A stretch of DNA of 64,000 nt from Breznakiella homolactica (GTDB lineage Bacteria; Spirochaetota; Spirochaetia; Treponematales; Breznakiellaceae): contig NZ_CP067089.2 of assembly GCF_016616095.2 (NCBI RefSeq), positions 2,294,001 to 2,358,000 on the forward strand, read 5' to 3'. The notes beneath the pieces were generated by a model, which had not been told where the DNA came from, searched no databases, and saw nothing but the letters and a program-made list of their open reading frames with translations. The position numbers were made by a program, and so were the translations under genes. This document shows, one piece after another, positions 8,406 through 15,197 of this stretch. Each line of letters opens with the position of its first letter. The first letter of the stretch is position 1.

Positions 8406-9392
8406 ATGAAACAAACAGCAGCAGTTTTTTTATTGGGTATTGTTGCGGCGGCCCTGTGCGCGGCCCAGGGTACCGAGACACAAACGGGATCATCCTTTAA
8501 ACAGGAAGGAATTGCCTCCTGGTACGGCGCGGAATTCGCGGGCAGGCCCACCGCCTCGGGAGAAATCTTTGATCCGCGGCTTATGACGGCTGCACATCCG
8601 ACCCTTCCCTTCGGCACGAAAGTCAGGGTAACCAACACCCATAACAACAGGCAGGTAACCGTTACGGTTAACGACCGGGGACCTTTTGTGGCGGCACGGA
8701 TTATCGACCTGTCCGAAGGCGCCGCGGAAAAACTCGATATGCTGGTCACCGGAACCGCCCCTGTACGGATTGAAGTGATCGGCGGACTCGCGTCCGCGGC
8801 CCCCGCTGAACAGAACAAAGGCGGCGCCATTTCCGGGCCTCCGCCCGTGGCATCGCCGCAGCCATTGGCGGCGGCACCCCAGCAGCCGGCAGCCGTTCCT
8901 CAGCAGCCGGCAGCCGTTCCTCAGCAGCCGGCAGCCGTTCCTCAGCAGCCGGCAGCCGTTCCTCAGCCGACAGCGGCACCGCAGCAGCCGGCGGCGCCTC
9001 CCGGCAGCACCGGAATACCGGCAGTTTCCCCGGCGGTGAGTACCGCCGCGGAAACTGCTCCGGTATCCGTCCCACAGCAACCCACCGCAGCGCCGGTTCC
9101 GGTAATCCGGCAGTTTGCGGCGGCGGAAATTAAACCGAAAATGCCCGACCCCGGATCAGGGAAAATATACCGGATCCAGGTTGGTTCATACAAAATCCCC
9201 AGGAACGCGGTGGAGGCTTTCGGCAGGCTGCAGGATGCGGGTCTCAATCCCGCCTATGAACGGTACGGCGAACTGTACCGGGTGGTACTTTCCGGAATAA
9301 AAGGAGATGATGTACAATCTGTGGCAGCCGCCCTTGGAAAAGCGGGTTTCAGCGAGGCACTGATCAGGGAGGAATCCCCGGGGAACCGGTAA
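8406..9392 (+). CDS. rlpA: RlpA-like septal lipoprotein/lytic transglycosylase with SPOR domain
   Basis: A secreted cell-wall protein of 328 residues. A signal peptide (about 1-20, ending CAAQG, not a perfect lipobox) precedes the double-psi beta-barrel domain (about 33-115) with GIASWYGAEFAGRPTASGE and 'VTVTVNDRGPFVAARIIDLS'; the RlpA catalytic Asp and His region is conserved. A Pro/Ala/Gln-rich linker follows (about 135-235) with a perfect tandem repeat. A C-terminal SPOR domain (about 255-325, 'IYRIQVGSYKIPRNAVEAFGRLQDAG') should bind denuded septal glycan. No clear SD is visible. It probably helps daughter-cell separation. Confidence 0.9.
   Translation: MKQTAAVFLLGIVAAALCAAQGTETQTGSSFKQEGIASWYGAEFAGRPTASGEIFDPRLMTAAHPTLPFGTKVRVTNTHNNRQVTVTVNDRGPFVAARIIDLSEGAAEKLDMLVTGTAPVRIEVIGGLASAAPAEQNKGGAISGPPPVASPQPLAAAPQQPAAVPQQPAAVPQQPAAVPQQPAAVPQPTAAPQQPAAPPGSTGIPAVSPAVSTAAETAPVSVPQQPTAAPVPVIRQFAAAEIKPKMPDPGSGKIYRIQVGSYKIPRNAVEAFGRLQDAGLNPAYERYGELYRVVLSGIKGDDVQSVAAALGKAGFSEALIREESPGNR
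8880..8963 (+). repeat. Four perfect 21-bp tandem repeats inside rlpA
   Basis: Four identical 21-bp units start at 8880, 8901, 8922 and 8943, and a partial fifth follows. Each encodes a QQPAAVP heptapeptide in the linker. Copy number could vary by slippage without breaking the frame. Confidence 0.9.
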
Positions 9393-9992: not shown

Positions 9993-10021
9993 TTGCCTTT
10001 ACCCATAAACCTATATACCAT
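9993..10021 (+). promoter_or_regulatory. Promoter of the EamA gene, leaderless spacing
   Basis: TTGCCT (9993-9998), 17-bp spacer, TACCAT (10016-10021), then seven bases to the ATG at 10029. No SD. Confidence 0.45.
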
Positions 10022-10028
10022 TGCAGCT

Positions 10029-11009
10029 ATGAATAAACAGGCGTTACGGGCGGATTTTCTGCTTCTGCTTACATCATGCATCTGGGGATTTGGCTTTGTT
10101 GCCCAGCGTTCGGGCATGGAATACGTCGGGCCCTTTACATACAGCGGGATACGCTTTGCCCTGGGAAGCATCTCCCTGCTCCCCCTTATCCTGTACCGGA
10201 AAAAGAAACTTCAAAAAAGTATTTTTATAACCCCAAAAGACGGAAGCGGGAAAAATTCCTTTAAAACCTTTATCCTGTCGTCTCTGGCCGCCGGGACGTT
10301 CCTGTTTTTGGGGGTATCCCTGCAGCAGGTGGGGATCGTCTATACCACCGCCGGCAAAGCCGGTTTTATCACGGGACTGTACGTTGTCCTGGTCCCGGTT
10401 TTCGGGCTTTTTCTCGGAAAGAAAACGGGGCTGCCCACCTGGGTGGGAGCCTTCTTTACCCTATTGGGCCTTTTCTTTGTGAGCACCACCGATACCGTCT
10501 CGGGGATCAACCCCGGGGATGTTCTTATTGCAGCGGGAGCCGTATTCTGGGCGTGCCACGTGCTGGTTATCGACAGACTGGTGAAGACCATTGACCCCAT
10601 CATTCTTTCCTCAGCCCAGTTTGCGTGGTGTTCGCTTTTTTCATCGGTCACCGCCGGTCTTACGGAATCCGTATCCTGGGGTTCGGTTTTTGCCGGCATA
10701 ATCCCGATCCTGTACGGCGGACTCTGCTCGGTGGGAATCGCCTATACGCTGCAGGCGGTCGCCCAGCGCCACGCGCCGCCGGCCCACGCTACCATAATCC
10801 TGTGCCTTGAAAGCGTTTTTGCCGCCGTCGGGGGTGTACTTATTCTTTCGGAACCCCTGGGTCCGCGGACCGTCGCCGGTTTCGCGCTGATACTCTGCGG
10901 CATGCTGGCGACCCAATGGGATGTGATCGCCGGAGGCTTCCGTAAAAAGACGGACGGAGAAAACCAGGCGGCGGAGCTCCAGCCGCCGCGGGATGAGCGG
11001 GCGGGATGA
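10029..11009 (+). CDS. EamA/DMT-family transporter (RhaT/YdcZ-like)
   Basis: An inner-membrane metabolite transporter of 326 residues with about ten hydrophobic segments arranged as two EamA repeats. The first begins 'ADFLLLLTSCIWGFGFVAQRSG' and contains 'TYSGIRFALGS'; the second contains 'GDVLIAAGAVFWACHVLVIDR' and ends near residue 300. Typical substrates of the family are amino acids or other small metabolites; the substrate here cannot be read. I chose the ATG at 10029 over the in-frame start at 9993, which lies within the promoter. Its stop overlaps the next start (ATGA), so the SfsA–DUF123 gene is translationally coupled. Confidence 0.88.
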   Translation: MNKQALRADFLLLLTSCIWGFGFVAQRSGMEYVGPFTYSGIRFALGSISLLPLILYRKKKLQKSIFITPKDGSGKNSFKTFILSSLAAGTFLFLGVSLQQVGIVYTTAGKAGFITGLYVVLVPVFGLFLGKKTGLPTWVGAFFTLLGLFFVSTTDTVSGINPGDVLIAAGAVFWACHVLVIDRLVKTIDPIILSSAQFAWCSLFSSVTAGLTESVSWGSVFAGIIPILYGGLCSVGIAYTLQAVAQRHAPPAHATIILCLESVFAAVGGVLILSEPLGPRTVAGFALILCGMLATQWDVIAGGFRKKTDGENQAAELQPPRDERAG

Positions 11010-12196
11010 CATCCGGCAGCTCGACGGCCTCCGGCAGCGCCAGGAAGTCAATACAGCTATTCAGAAACGACCGGGAAGCGTTTTTCGCCAGGCGGCCTAA
11101 CCGGTTCCTCATACTGGCGGATCCCGGCGGAACCGGCGGGGAAATACCCTGCCACTGCCCCAATCCGGGGAGGCTTATCGAATTCGTGTTTCCCGGAACG
11201 AAGCTGATCCTTGAAAAACGGGAAAATCATACCGATACAGCGAAAACAGCGTGGACCGCGGCGGGGCTCTATTACCGGGACGCGGTGGTTCCGCTGTATT
11301 CCTCCCGGGCGAACCGCGCGGCGCAGCGGCTTATCCTTCCTGAAATCATACCAAACCTCACGGAAATTAAACCGGAACACACCATCGGCCAGTCCCGGTT
11401 CGATTTTTTATGCGTTGACAGGGATAACCGGCAGCACCTGGTGGAAGTCAAGGCCTGTTCTTTGGTTGAATACGGAACGGCAATGTTTCCCGACGCTCCA
11501 AGCGCCCGGGCGGCCAAACACCTTGCGGAGCTGGCGGAACTCAGTGCCCGCGGCTTTGTCTGCCACGTGCTTTTCGTCATCGTCCACGGAAATCCTTCGG
11601 TCTTTATCCCGAATCTCCACACTGATCCGGCTTTTGCCGCGGCGGTGAGCCGGTACAGCGATTCCGTCCATATCCATGCCGCTCTTCTCAAGTGCGACAG
11701 CCGGGGAACCGCGGTTCTGGAAAAAAGCTCCGTCCCGGCGGATCTGTCCCATGGAGAACTTGCCGGGCAGGACCGGGGTAACTATTTTATTGCCCTGGAA
11801 ATTCCCGAAAAAACCAGTATCCCCGTCGGGGCTTTGGGAATTCTGGAATTTGAGAAGGGCTGGTACGTTTACGCCGGTTCGGCCCAGAAAAACCTTTCCC
11901 GGCGAATAGCCAGGCATCTGCGGAAAGTTCGGAAGCAGAAGCATTGGCACCTGGATTACCTGACGCCGGAAGCAAAAACCATTAAGGCTTTTCCCGTATG
12001 CAGTTACCGGAACCTGGAATGCGTCATGGCGGAAGAGCTGCGGCGGCTCGGCGGGATTCCCGTCTCCGGGTTCGGGTGTTCCGACTGCCGGTGCGGAAGC
12101 CATTTGTACCGCTTTTCCGCCCCGCCCCTTTCGAACCGGGGTTTTGTGGATATGCTGCTCCGGCTGAGGCACCGGGATGGACTGCAGAGACCCTGA
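11006..12196 (+). CDS. sfsA: SfsA nuclease domain fused to a DUF123 (GIY-YIG-like) domain
   Basis: A 396-residue two-domain protein. Residues about 15-245 are SfsA, a DNA-binding protein with a PD-(D/E)XK-type nuclease core; the expected acidic and basic residues are seen in SRFDF (about 130-134) and VEVKA (about 146-150). Residues about 258-372 are a DUF123/COG1833 domain: GNYFIALEI, GWYVYAGSA (about 286-294), 'RRIARHLR', HWHLDYL, an ECxMAEEL helix and the Cys-rich 'GFGCSDCRCGSHLYRF'. SfsA normally stands alone at about 230 residues, and DUF123 occurs alone or joined to endonuclease III in archaea. The fusion suggests a two-activity DNA-processing enzyme. The gene overlaps the EamA stop by 4 bp. 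Confidence 0.85.
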   Translation: MTSGSSTASGSARKSIQLFRNDREAFFARRPNRFLILADPGGTGGEIPCHCPNPGRLIEFVFPGTKLILEKRENHTDTAKTAWTAAGLYYRDAVVPLYSSRANRAAQRLILPEIIPNLTEIKPEHTIGQSRFDFLCVDRDNRQHLVEVKACSLVEYGTAMFPDAPSARAAKHLAELAELSARGFVCHVLFVIVHGNPSVFIPNLHTDPAFAAAVSRYSDSVHIHAALLKCDSRGTAVLEKSSVPADLSHGELAGQDRGNYFIALEIPEKTSIPVGALGILEFEKGWYVYAGSAQKNLSRRIARHLRKVRKQKHWHLDYLTPEAKTIKAFPVCSYRNLECVMAEELRRLGGIPVSGFGCSDCRCGSHLYRFSAPPLSNRGFVDMLLRLRHRDGLQRP

Positions 12197-12215: not shown

Positions 12216-12644
12216 TCAGCCGGCGGTATGGTCCGGACCGCCGGCGGCGTTTTTCCTGCACCCGGGGCAGATCCCGGTAAAATACAGAATATGGCTCCGG
12301 ACTTCCGCCCCCTGCTCTTCTTCAAATTTTCTGATGAGACCGGTAATTGTGCAGGAACCCATATCGATAAAACAGTGGCATTGTTCGCAGTGGAACCAAT
12401 GGGTATGGGACAGGGTATTTTTTAAAGAACAGAAATACCGTTCCGCGCCGTGTTCCTGGCAGTACAGAACAAAGGATTCCGCCTGTCCCGAGGATTCAAG
12501 GTAATGCAGGGACCGGTACACGGTGGCCTGGTCGCAGGAATTTTCCATGAGACCGTACACCCCCGCGGCGGAAAGCGGTTCGGAGGCGCGGTTAAGGATA
12601 TCCAGAACCTGCCCCCTGGTTCGCGTCATAACGGCCTTTCCCAT
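12216..12644 (-). CDS. zur: Fur-family regulator, probable zinc sensor Zur
   Basis: A 142-residue DNA-binding metalloregulator. The N-terminal winged helix reads 'TRTRGQVLDILNRASEPLSAAGVYGLM' and 'DQATVYRSLHYLESSGQAE', the Fur-family recognition region. The dimerisation domain has the structural zinc cysteines CEQC (about 91-94) and CPGC (about 129-132) and the His-rich 'SHTHWFHCEQCHCF'. Being the last gene of the zinc ABC operon, with its start overlapping the znuB stop (TAATG), identifies it as Zur rather than Fur or PerR by context. It probably represses its own operon through the palindrome at 15205-15249. Confidence 0.88.
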   Translation of the reverse strand: MGKAVMTRTRGQVLDILNRASEPLSAAGVYGLMENSCDQATVYRSLHYLESSGQAESFVLYCQEHGAERYFCSLKNTLSHTHWFHCEQCHCFIDMGSCTITGLIRKFEEEQGAEVRSHILYFTGICPGCRKNAAGGPDHTAG

Positions 12645-13486
12645 TACCGCCCCCGTACGACCTTGATTCCCGCGGCCGCCAGAAACACGATGCCCGCCAG
12701 AATAACCACCATGGCGCCTACGGGCGCGTCAAAAGCCCAGCCAAGAATAAGGCCTCCGGTGGAAAAAAACGCCGAAAAGATTGTGCTGATCAGCATCATT
12801 CCCCCAAGGCTTTTCGAAACATAGGCGGCGCTGCCCGCCGGAAGCGTGAGCATGGCTATGACCATGACAATTCCCACAAAGGTCTGGAGAAGGACTATGG
12901 CCACCGCCACAATACTGAGGAGAATCAGAAACAGCGCCGCGGCAGGGACATTTCTGACCCTGGCGAATTCCTCGTCAAAAGAAGAAGCCGCGATCTGCGG
13001 GTAGAAACGCCACGCCAGGAAAACGACAATGCAGTCGAGGACGGCCATGAGCAGAAGGTCCCGGTTTGAAATGAGAAGAATATTCCCGAACAAATAGCTC
13101 GAAGGATCCGTGTACCCCGGGGTCTTTGCCATGAACAGCACCCCCACGCTCATGCCGATGGCCCATATTGCATTGATCACCGTATCCTCCCGCTGCTTGG
13201 CTTTGAGGGACACGATGCCGATAATCATCGCCGAAAGAAGGGCAAAAACGATAGCGCCGGCCATGGGCGGGAATCCCGGGATAATATTGGTTGCCGAAAA
13301 AAACAGCGCCATTCCGATCCCGCCGAGAACCGCGTGGGATATGGCTCCGGCAAGGCTCGCGATACGGCGGACCGTAACCACGGAACCGAGTATTCCAAAG
13401 AGAACCGACGAAAGCAATCCCGCAAAAAACGCGTTCCGGATAAAAGGGAAAGCCGGATTGCTCAGGGCTTCAATAAATCCGCTCAT
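12644..13486 (-). CDS. znuB: Zinc ABC transporter permease
   Basis: The membrane subunit of the zinc importer, 280 residues, ABC-3 family, with about eight membrane segments. Typical features are 'SLAGAISHAVLGGIGMAL' (the coupling region) near residue 40-57 and 'LLQTFVGIVMVIAMLTLPAGSAAYVSKSL' near 200-228. It overlaps znuC by 4 bp and zur by one base, so the four genes form one tightly packed operon. Confidence 0.93.
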   Translation of the reverse strand: MSGFIEALSNPAFPFIRNAFFAGLLSSVLFGILGSVVTVRRIASLAGAISHAVLGGIGMALFFSATNIIPGFPPMAGAIVFALLSAMIIGIVSLKAKQREDTVINAIWAIGMSVGVLFMAKTPGYTDPSSYLFGNILLISNRDLLLMAVLDCIVVFLAWRFYPQIAASSFDEEFARVRNVPAAALFLILLSIVAVAIVLLQTFVGIVMVIAMLTLPAGSAAYVSKSLGGMMLISTIFSAFFSTGGLILGWAFDAPVGAMVVILAGIVFLAAAGIKVVRGR

Positions 13487-14286
13487 TTACCGCCCTCCTC
13501 TTCATAGCAGCTGTTGCCGGGAATGCTGGAATTGTGGTTGATCCGGTAATTCCCCGGGGAATCAGCTTCCGCGCCGAGGCTCTCCGGATGGGTTTTATGC
13601 TGAACCACCCCGTAGGGATTGCCGGGATTCTCCCGGGAGCCGAGGCAGAGAACCCGGTCCGTAAGGGAGGAAACGAATGCCGTATCATGGGTCACGATAA
13701 GAATCGTGGTACTCCCCTTGAGCCGCCCCAGGGTTTTGAAAAGACGCTCCTCGCTCTCCTCATCCATATTGGCGGTGGGTTCATCCAGGAGAAGAAAATT
13801 CGGGCTCGCCGCCAGCGCCCGGGCGACGAGGACCCGCCGGCGCTGTCCGCCGGAAAGGGCTGTGTACGGCCTGGCGGCAAGATCCGTGATTTCGACCTGG
13901 GCAAGGGCTTCGTCCACGGCACGGCTGTCCTCGGCGGTGAACTTCCGCGACAGCGGCCGGAGGCGTCCCATTTTTACAACCTCCCGCACCGAAATAGGAA
14001 AGGCCTGATCGTATCCCGCCTGCTGGGGAACATACCCGATACGGTTCCGGGATGAACGGGGACTCGCCCCCAGAAGTTCAATCCTTCCGGCCTGGGGTTC
14101 TTCGAGGCCGAGAATCAGTTTGAGGATTGTCGTTTTGCCGGACCCGTTGGGTCCGACCAGGGCTACGAATTCACCCTGATGGATATGGAACCCAGCGTGT
14201 CTGAGAACCGCGACGGCGCCGTATGAAAAGGATACATCATCAAAGTACAGGGTAATATCCCGGTCAACCGGATGGAAGGGTTTCAC
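13483..14286 (-). CDS. znuC: Zinc ABC transporter ATP-binding protein
   Basis: The ATPase of the zinc importer, 267 residues. Walker A GPNGSGKTT (about 44-52), signature LSGGQRRRV (about 143-151) and Walker B FLLLDEPTAN are all intact, and 'GYVPQQAGYDQAFPISVREVVKMGRL' is characteristic of ABC-3 metal-type ATPases. A C-terminal tail with several His and one Cys extends beyond the core and might bind zinc. It overlaps both neighbours by 4 bp. Confidence 0.94.
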   Translation of the reverse strand: MKPFHPVDRDITLYFDDVSFSYGAVAVLRHAGFHIHQGEFVALVGPNGSGKTTILKLILGLEEPQAGRIELLGASPRSSRNRIGYVPQQAGYDQAFPISVREVVKMGRLRPLSRKFTAEDSRAVDEALAQVEITDLAARPYTALSGGQRRRVLVARALAASPNFLLLDEPTANMDEESEERLFKTLGRLKGSTTILIVTHDTAFVSSLTDRVLCLGSRENPGNPYGVVQHKTHPESLGAEADSPGNYRINHNSSIPGNSCYEEEGGK

Positions 14287-15197
14287 GGGACTTCTCCGGT
14301 AAGGGCATCCTTGAGGGATTTCCCCATGAATCTGATATTGGCCAGCCAGTCCGGCGCGAGCGGGTCCAGGGGGATAACCCGGGCGCCGACGGAATCGGCC
14401 ACGGTTTTAGCGCTCTGCAGGGGAAACTGGGCCTGCACGAATATGGCCGCGGCGTTTTCGGCCTGGGCCTTTTCTATAAGTTCCGCAAGTACCCTGGGGG
14501 TGGGTTCTTTTCCGCCGGTTTCAACGGCTTCCTGTTCAATACCGAATTCATCCAGAAAATACCCGAACGAAGGATGGTACACAAATACGGTCCGTCCCCG
14601 GAGCGGTTCCAGCTCCCTGCCGAGGCTGTCGAACTCCCGGTCAATGTCGGCGGCGAGGATAGTATAGTTTTGTTCGTACAGGGCCGCATGGTCCCCGTCT
14701 ATGGAGATGAACAGGTCCCGTATATGGGCGGCCATGATCTTCGCCGGTTCCCTTCCAAGCCAGGTATGCCGGTCCAGCTCCATCCCATGAACCGGTCCGG
14801 AACCGGAAGGCTCGGAATGGCCGTGGCTGTCCAGCATTCTGAACTGAACCCCGTCGGTACCGTCAACGATTACAAGGTCCGGACAGAGTTCCTCGATTTT
14901 AGGCTTTAAAGAGATTTCAAAATCCGTATTGGAAAGCACCCATCCCCGGGCCTCCGCCAGAAGCGCCATCTGCCGCGGGGTCGGTTCATAGGAGTGGGGA
15001 CTCTGTCCCGGGCCTACGAGAACCACCGTTTCCGCCAGGTCTCCGGCGATACGTTCTATAAAATACGACTGGGGGAGGATACTCACCGCTATAATGGGTT
15101 TTCCCGATTTCTGTTCCTGTCCGCCGTTTCCGTAAAGGGAACCGGCGATAATGACAGCAAAAACTGCAATACACCATAATCCTGAACTGCGTACCAT
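14283..15197 (-). CDS. znuA: Zinc ABC transporter substrate-binding protein
   Basis: A periplasmic cluster A-I metal-binding protein of 304 residues with a signal peptide (about 1-23). Likely metal ligands are His in GPGQSPHSYEP (about residue 68), in 'DRHTWLG' (about 142) and in 'FVYHPSFGYFLDEFG' (about 210), plus an acidic residue near the C-terminus; the short acidic/His loop 'DSHGHSEPSGSGPVHG' is typical of ZnuA rather than manganese-type proteins. The ATG at 15197 has GGAG seven bases upstream. First gene of the operon; the leader contains half of the 45-bp palindrome. Confidence 0.92.
   Translation of the reverse strand: MVRSSGLWCIAVFAVIIAGSLYGNGGQEQKSGKPIIAVSILPQSYFIERIAGDLAETVVLVGPGQSPHSYEPTPRQMALLAEARGWVLSNTDFEISLKPKIEELCPDLVIVDGTDGVQFRMLDSHGHSEPSGSGPVHGMELDRHTWLGREPAKIMAAHIRDLFISIDGDHAALYEQNYTILAADIDREFDSLGRELEPLRGRTVFVYHPSFGYFLDEFGIEQEAVETGGKEPTPRVLAELIEKAQAENAAAIFVQAQFPLQSAKTVADSVGARVIPLDPLAPDWLANIRFMGKSLKDALTGEVP

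Follow-up and report, generated by a model that had tools for sequence, protein, structure and literature searches.

The present locus raises the question of what a cell might gain from joining SfsA and DUF123 in one chain, as these are two widespread nuclease-like families for which no settled cellular role was found in the literature searched. In the window (the whole stretch of 64,000 nucleotides analysed), a single open frame of 396 amino acids on the forward strand (11006..12196) encodes an SfsA_N OB-fold domain (residues 29-95, 11090..11290; PF17746, 49.2 bits against a cut-off of 25), the PD-(D/E)XK domain of SfsA (residues 101-231, 11306..11698; PF03749, 112 bits against 22.8) and a GIY-YIG-like DUF123 / COG1833 domain (residues 281-368, 11846..12109; PF01986, 89.2 bits against 25), each far above its Pfam cut-off. 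Thus, the claim of an earlier examination of the letters (the sequence-only reading) that a complete SfsA and a complete DUF123 share one frame was borne out, with both catalytic sets present. The motifs quoted there were all found, namely RFDF (131-134), EVK (147-149), YVYAGSA (287-293) and C358-x2-C361-x-C363-x2-H366, but C358 is poorly conserved (just 3 of the 10 sequences in alignment A1 have Cys there), and the conserved part is therefore rather D-C-x-C-x2-H. On the same strand, the SfsA catalytic set D133, E147 and K149 spans 11402..11452, the GIY-YIG-type set Y287, Y289, G291, R300 and E338 spans 11864..12019, and the cluster C361-x-C363-x2-H366, a likely metal site, spans 12086..12103. 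R300 and E338 were matched by eye, using the residue numbering, to what we take to be the Arg and Glu of UvrC.

The features that define both families were observed in this protein. The N-terminal half has PF17746 and PF03749, a D...(D/E)XK site and the fold of solved SfsA proteins, and the C-terminal half has the PF01986 score, the Cys/His extension of DUF123 / COG1833 (C361, C363, H366) and the two motif Tyr, Arg and Glu of GIY-YIG domains (the near-invariant Y287, Y289, R300 and E338). Against TIGR00230 (sfsA, NCBIfam), the fusion scores 122.3, narrowly below the cut-off of 126.45, and is thus filed in the domain family only, with no assured equivalence to E. coli SfsA. An erroneous join within a single assembly can be dismissed, since 31 relatives come from other records. 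The single contig of the host genome (G000, 4.65 Mb) contains one DUF123 match, the fusion itself, and one separate GIY-YIG match (PF01541) in a 711-aa frame, presumably UvrC. A second SfsA of about 298 aa, divergent and stand-alone, is encoded outside the window in the same genome (L002, 1069-1965) and has the longest branch of the SfsA tree.

The catalytic residues were compared in 72 fused or extended sequences from two phyla, with 11 identifiers repeating a locus dropped; these rows are kin, and three derive from one MAG, Nm470_bin44. In the SfsA site, D133 is present in 72/72 rows, and E147 and K149 in 71/72. On the DUF123 side, for the 62 rows that do not belong to the degenerate group described below, Y287, Y289 and G291 are each present in 62/62, R300 in 61 (L026 has Leu) and E338 in all 61 rows with a letter there, L048 being truncated at this site. 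In the same 62 rows, C361 is retained in 55, C363 in 57 and H366 in 61, L048 again being truncated. The Cys ligands are partly or wholly absent, with the Glu retained, in L049, L050, L052, L053, L056 and L106, in agreement with the suggestion, in the available part of PMC1564403, that the Cys/His cluster of COG1833 is structural. Altogether, 61 of the 72 rows lie outside both the degenerate group and L106, including L026 (no R300) and L048 (truncated), and loss of both sites was observed in none of the 72. Degeneracy of both active sites, which the sequence-only reading had named as fatal to its idea, is contradicted by the intact sets in the window protein and most relatives.

The whole-chain prediction that had been advised as a check gave one confident AlphaFold chain (30 sequences; mean pLDDT 87.4, pTM 0.83), and this model suggests that the two halves are held in a defined arrangement. 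The N-terminal half matches E. coli SfsA (4dap; Z 25.3, rmsd 2.2, 227 residues) and P. furiosus SfsA "in complex with DNA" (4dav; Z 24.1, rmsd 2.4, 227 residues); its best match outside SfsA is EndoMS with DNA (Z 6.5), and many weak OB-fold matches are ribosomal proteins. For the C-terminal half, modelled alone (pLDDT 90.9, pTM 0.87), the four best VIA rows are all GIY-YIG domains of UvrC (69-74 residues), with weak scores of Z 4.1-3.4, of which Z 4.1 is a common level. Thus, the nuclease-like folds claimed from the letters are well supported for SfsA, and for the GIY-YIG side the match to UvrC is weak. Foldseek returned no match to the C-terminal half at E 0.001; photosystem I subunits, ranked first at E 0.016 and above, were given no weight. 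A sequence search for a solved DUF123, run to E 10, yielded 12 matches (lowest E 0.053), none of them plausible.

The fusion is shared well beyond the host. In the species-level genome collection, 31 relatives were found, 4 from Veillonella and 27 from spirochaetes with record titles of Treponema, Spirochaetaceae or Spirochaetia; 30 of the 31 match most of the query, and L029 is a fragment. Many of the spirochaete relatives presumably come from termite guts, judging from their isolate codes. The survey of architectures in Spirochaetota and the phylum of Veillonella, also advised earlier, showed that the fusion is not unique to the host. In Spirochaetota, the fusion profile A1 matches 75 of the 392 genomes drawn, which were sorted by reading the frames or, for part of the 34 genomes below, by match range and frame length. 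Both domains lie in one frame in 27 (including G329, which ends at a contig edge, and G039, with a broken SfsA site), SfsA has a C-terminal extension barely or not recognisable as DUF123 in 10, SfsA occurs with no DUF123 in the same frame in 34 (in G013, a different contig carries a short DUF123-like stretch as well), DUF123 occurs alone in 3, and one genome (G320) is a doubtful partial case. Its locus, L107, was set aside, as the DUF123-like stretch is partial and the frame poor. In the phylum of Veillonella, 181 of 299 genomes match A1, and the full fusion was found in at least 5 (G392, G689, G464, G482 and G443, among the matches listed), a count that may miss weaker fusions. In the control genomes, SfsA was observed in 7/14 and DUF123 in 4/14. 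In the phage and plasmid collections, 9 and 36 records matched, none with a single place covering 80% of the query, and in IMG/VR the A1 scan produced 76 pattern matches, of which tblastn confirmed no relatives; a viral origin was rejected on these grounds.

The sequence-only reading had also reckoned with the fusion being both common and already characterised. It is indeed common to several families, but no characterisation, and no paper on an SfsA-DUF123 fusion, was found in the literature searched, a scope that took in neither the bulk of subscription journals nor the pages on which domain databases show architectures. We would expect these databases to list the architecture without comment. 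Judged from its sequence, the protein is a genuine and shared fusion of two nuclease-like domains with intact sites and, within the literature searched, a new combination of known families.

The gene neighbourhood offers little to explain this combination. The fusion starts within an ATGA overlap (11006..11009, + strand) with the stop codon of an EamA-family transporter gene (9993..11009, + strand; PF00892, 122.1 bits), a coupling that had been noted as unexplained. Upstream DNA is available at 24 spirochaete loci and missing at 3; EamA is the immediate upstream neighbour in 18 of the 24, but in 0/8 loci of Veillonella and its phylum (0/4 in Veillonella, and none in L132-L135), and is thus a matter of local gene order; the order of genes around the window fusion is kept among relatives. 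Among ten genes scanned next to other fusions, five were assigned to a diaminopimelate epimerase, an enoyl-CoA hydratase, gyrase subunit A, an AMP-binding enzyme and a DUF5648 protein; two gave weak matches below cut-off, and three had no family. No partner gene is shared among the neighbours scanned; therefore, EamA probably does not account for the function. Downstream, on the reverse strand (12216-15197), a Fur-family regulator and zinc/manganese ABC importer-like genes (permease, ATPase and binding protein, by eye) are perhaps a Zur-type regulon. An RlpA-like lytic transglycosylase with a SPOR domain and a repetitive linker rich in proline, alanine and glutamine is encoded at 8406-9392 (+ strand).

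The trees bear on the origin of the fusion. Near relatives (20), the fragments or copies L010, L029, L126 and L130, and duplicate identifiers were left out of the trees. In the SfsA-domain tree of 90 rows, which was also built without the long-branched L002, L106, L129 and L138, a branch of 99/97 separates 49 fused or extended forms, together with L062 and L064, from 39 stand-alone SfsA proteins, and the spirochaete and Bacillota fusions lie together on the fused side. A quick tree of 94 rows including the four long branches gave the same split (SH-aLRT 88). The SfsA tree is unrooted, and gain and loss are what we infer from it; it is probably best explained by, and is consistent with, a single old fusion. 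A clade of the fused rows without L062 and L064 was rejected (AU p 0.006), and loss of DUF123 is thus the simplest account of these two SfsA proteins. Support in the DUF123 tree is weak, and 4 changes of state are required on it. The fused rows plus L108 are compatible with one clade (AU p 0.246), and the fused rows alone formed a clade in 0/200 bootstrap trees. This tree may thus accommodate one fusion or several and does not decide between them.

In some lineages, either half has been lost or its catalytic site broken while the other was kept. First, in seven proteins (L099-L105), the C-terminal part aligns with DUF123 over 125 columns (hhalign 99.2%, E 1e-19), and Glu 338, His 366 and an intact Cys pair are absent in 7/7 (L102 has Cys at 363); one or both motif Tyr are retained in some, and the SfsA site is intact in all seven. 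Thus, the domain can persist without its catalytic residues. A single clade of these proteins is compatible with the data (AU p 0.303), and both a single and a repeated decay are possible. Second, L062 and L064 have SfsA without DUF123. Third, in L106, Ser, Thr and Glu replace E124, E147 and K149 of SfsA, and the Tyr, Arg and Glu of DUF123 are kept. Fourth, L108 is a 155-aa DUF123 without SfsA; it is the sole A1 match of its genome (G003), in which no SfsA was found at this sensitivity. The two genes behind L108, which by eye resemble those for prenyl synthetase and IspH, are the same pair as those behind L106, L049 and L052, an order not found in L050 despite a family code shared with L106. 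The DUF123 tree gives weak support (94/46) to the kinship of L106 and L108, and the SfsA-loss side rests on this one lineage of draft genomes. In L096 (2365-2781), L097 (1820-2236) and L098 (1524-2042), SfsA carries an extension of about 140-170 aa where DUF123 would sit, with no Pfam family and no match to the DUF123 profile (profile comparison 2.4%); these three were excluded from the count of shown degenerate DUF123 domains and included among the 10/72 rows with a degenerate or unrecognisable C-terminal part. On the evidence of these sequences, the two activities look evolutionarily separable. The reciprocal losses weaken an obligatory two-step reaction and favour a pair of separable activities directed at a common class of substrate.

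Herein, we tentatively propose, with a likelihood somewhat short of even, that the fusion is a two-headed housekeeping nuclease making complementary, separable incisions on a shared substrate class. The OB-fold and PD-(D/E)XK module of SfsA would bind nucleic acid and cut at D133/E147/K149, and the GIY-YIG module, placed in a defined position behind it, would cut at Y287/Y289/R300/E338, with the Cys/His cluster stabilising the C-terminal extension of DUF123. The fusion would bring both activities to the same substrate class, most likely damaged or branched DNA, and the two incisions would be complementary and separable rather than obligatory steps of one reaction. Cutting by either site, DNA as the substrate and a role in repair are what we infer here. 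This proposal is supported by the near-invariant sites, the confident chain, the SfsA fold, the 99/97 branch, the separability of the halves, the lack of a defence match and the lack of a common partner. Against it stand the weak UvrC match (Z 4.1), the photosystem ranking in Foldseek, the degenerate DUF123 retained in seven proteins, the single draft-genome lineage (kinship 94/46) behind the loss of SfsA, and the position of E. coli sfsA among RNA genes. In addition, the available part of PMC1189080 predicts SfsA to be a nuclease and cites non-specific DNA binding, but leaves hydrolysis of something else possible. As both sites are intact in a natural fusion, the substrates of SfsA and DUF123 probably meet, and the series from both halves intact through DUF123 degenerate, DUF123 gone and SfsA broken to SfsA gone provides natural variants probing each half.

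The sequence-only reading had proposed that the pair acts successively on one lesion or structure, and an obligatory dual incision, with the two sites cutting one after the other on either side of it as in UvrC, would fit the intact sets of the window protein and most relatives, the single confident chain and a like proposal for EndoIII-COG1833 in the available part of PMC1564403. We nevertheless regard it as unlikely, as reciprocal loss (seven degenerate DUF123 domains; L062 and L064; L106; L108) speaks against obligatory steps, although such a reaction could still hold in the lineage of the window. To a similar degree, we doubt that SfsA is the enzyme and DUF123 a nucleic-acid clamp that binds or positions the substrate. 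The SfsA site in 71/72 rows, against a degenerate or unrecognisable C-terminal part in 10/72 (7 shown to be DUF123 homologues), and the persistence of DUF123 after the loss of its catalytic residues would be expected of a clamp; the near-invariance of these residues in the other 62 rows and the survival of DUF123 beyond the SfsA site in L106 and L108 would not. A bolder and rather improbable version of our proposal would make the fusion a dual-incision repair enzyme of ancient origin, complete in itself and independent of UvrABC, in which one half substitutes when the other decays; if true, this mutual substitution would explain the reciprocal losses. The evidence also leaves small room for a nuclease of RNA processing or decay instead of a DNA enzyme: the NCBIfam name "DNA/RNA nuclease SfsA", the RNA genes thpR, gluQRS and pcnB among the neighbours of E. 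coli sfsA (plasmid record) and the ribosomal proteins among the OB-fold matches point to RNA, whereas OB folds are common, the solved structure of P. furiosus SfsA is a DNA complex, and the GIY-YIG families of known role in the available part of PMC1564403 are DNA enzymes. Finally, a nuclease of defence or mobile elements is most improbable, despite stand-alone DUF123 on plasmids (14 records matched, three inspected), SfsA-like domains beside prokaryotic Argonautes and in one cluster with restriction-like genes (available parts of PMC2743648 and PMC1189080, respectively), because the window protein has no PADLOC match at E 0.1 and a Veillonella relative only a 13.9-bit partial one, no place in phage or plasmid records reaches 80% cover, no relative in viral contigs was confirmed, and the gene order around the window gene is conserved among relatives. 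One of the plasmid DUF123 genes (L136, 2995-3456; Allochromatium) lies between replication initiation and NYN-domain genes, with cas6 further downstream.

Compared with known systems, the fusion shares with the SfsA family (COG1489, PF03749/PF17746) the OB-fold and PD-(D/E)XK domains, the D-EVK site and the fold (Z 24-25 over 227 residues), and differs in carrying a further domain at its C-terminus, in being set apart by the 99/97 branch and in narrowly missing the TIGR00230 cut-off. UvrC carries two nuclease centres in one chain. Likewise, the fusion would combine a GIY-YIG centre, predicted here, with another nuclease centre unrelated to it, but the domain order and the second nuclease are different, and the host has a separate presumed UvrC, the 711-aa frame. 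The closest parallel for DUF123 is its joining to endonuclease III in archaea, which the sequence-only reading had stated in general terms; such a fusion exists, but according to the available part of PMC1564403, which places COG1833 in the GIY-YIG group and describes its C-terminal Cys/His extension, it was found in 2006 only in two Methanococcales proteins and is thus no general archaeal feature. With these, the present fusion has in common PF01986, the Tyr/Arg/Glu set, the Cys/His extension and the C-terminal position of DUF123 behind another nucleic-acid enzyme, whereas the fusion described here is bacterial and its partner is SfsA instead of endonuclease III.
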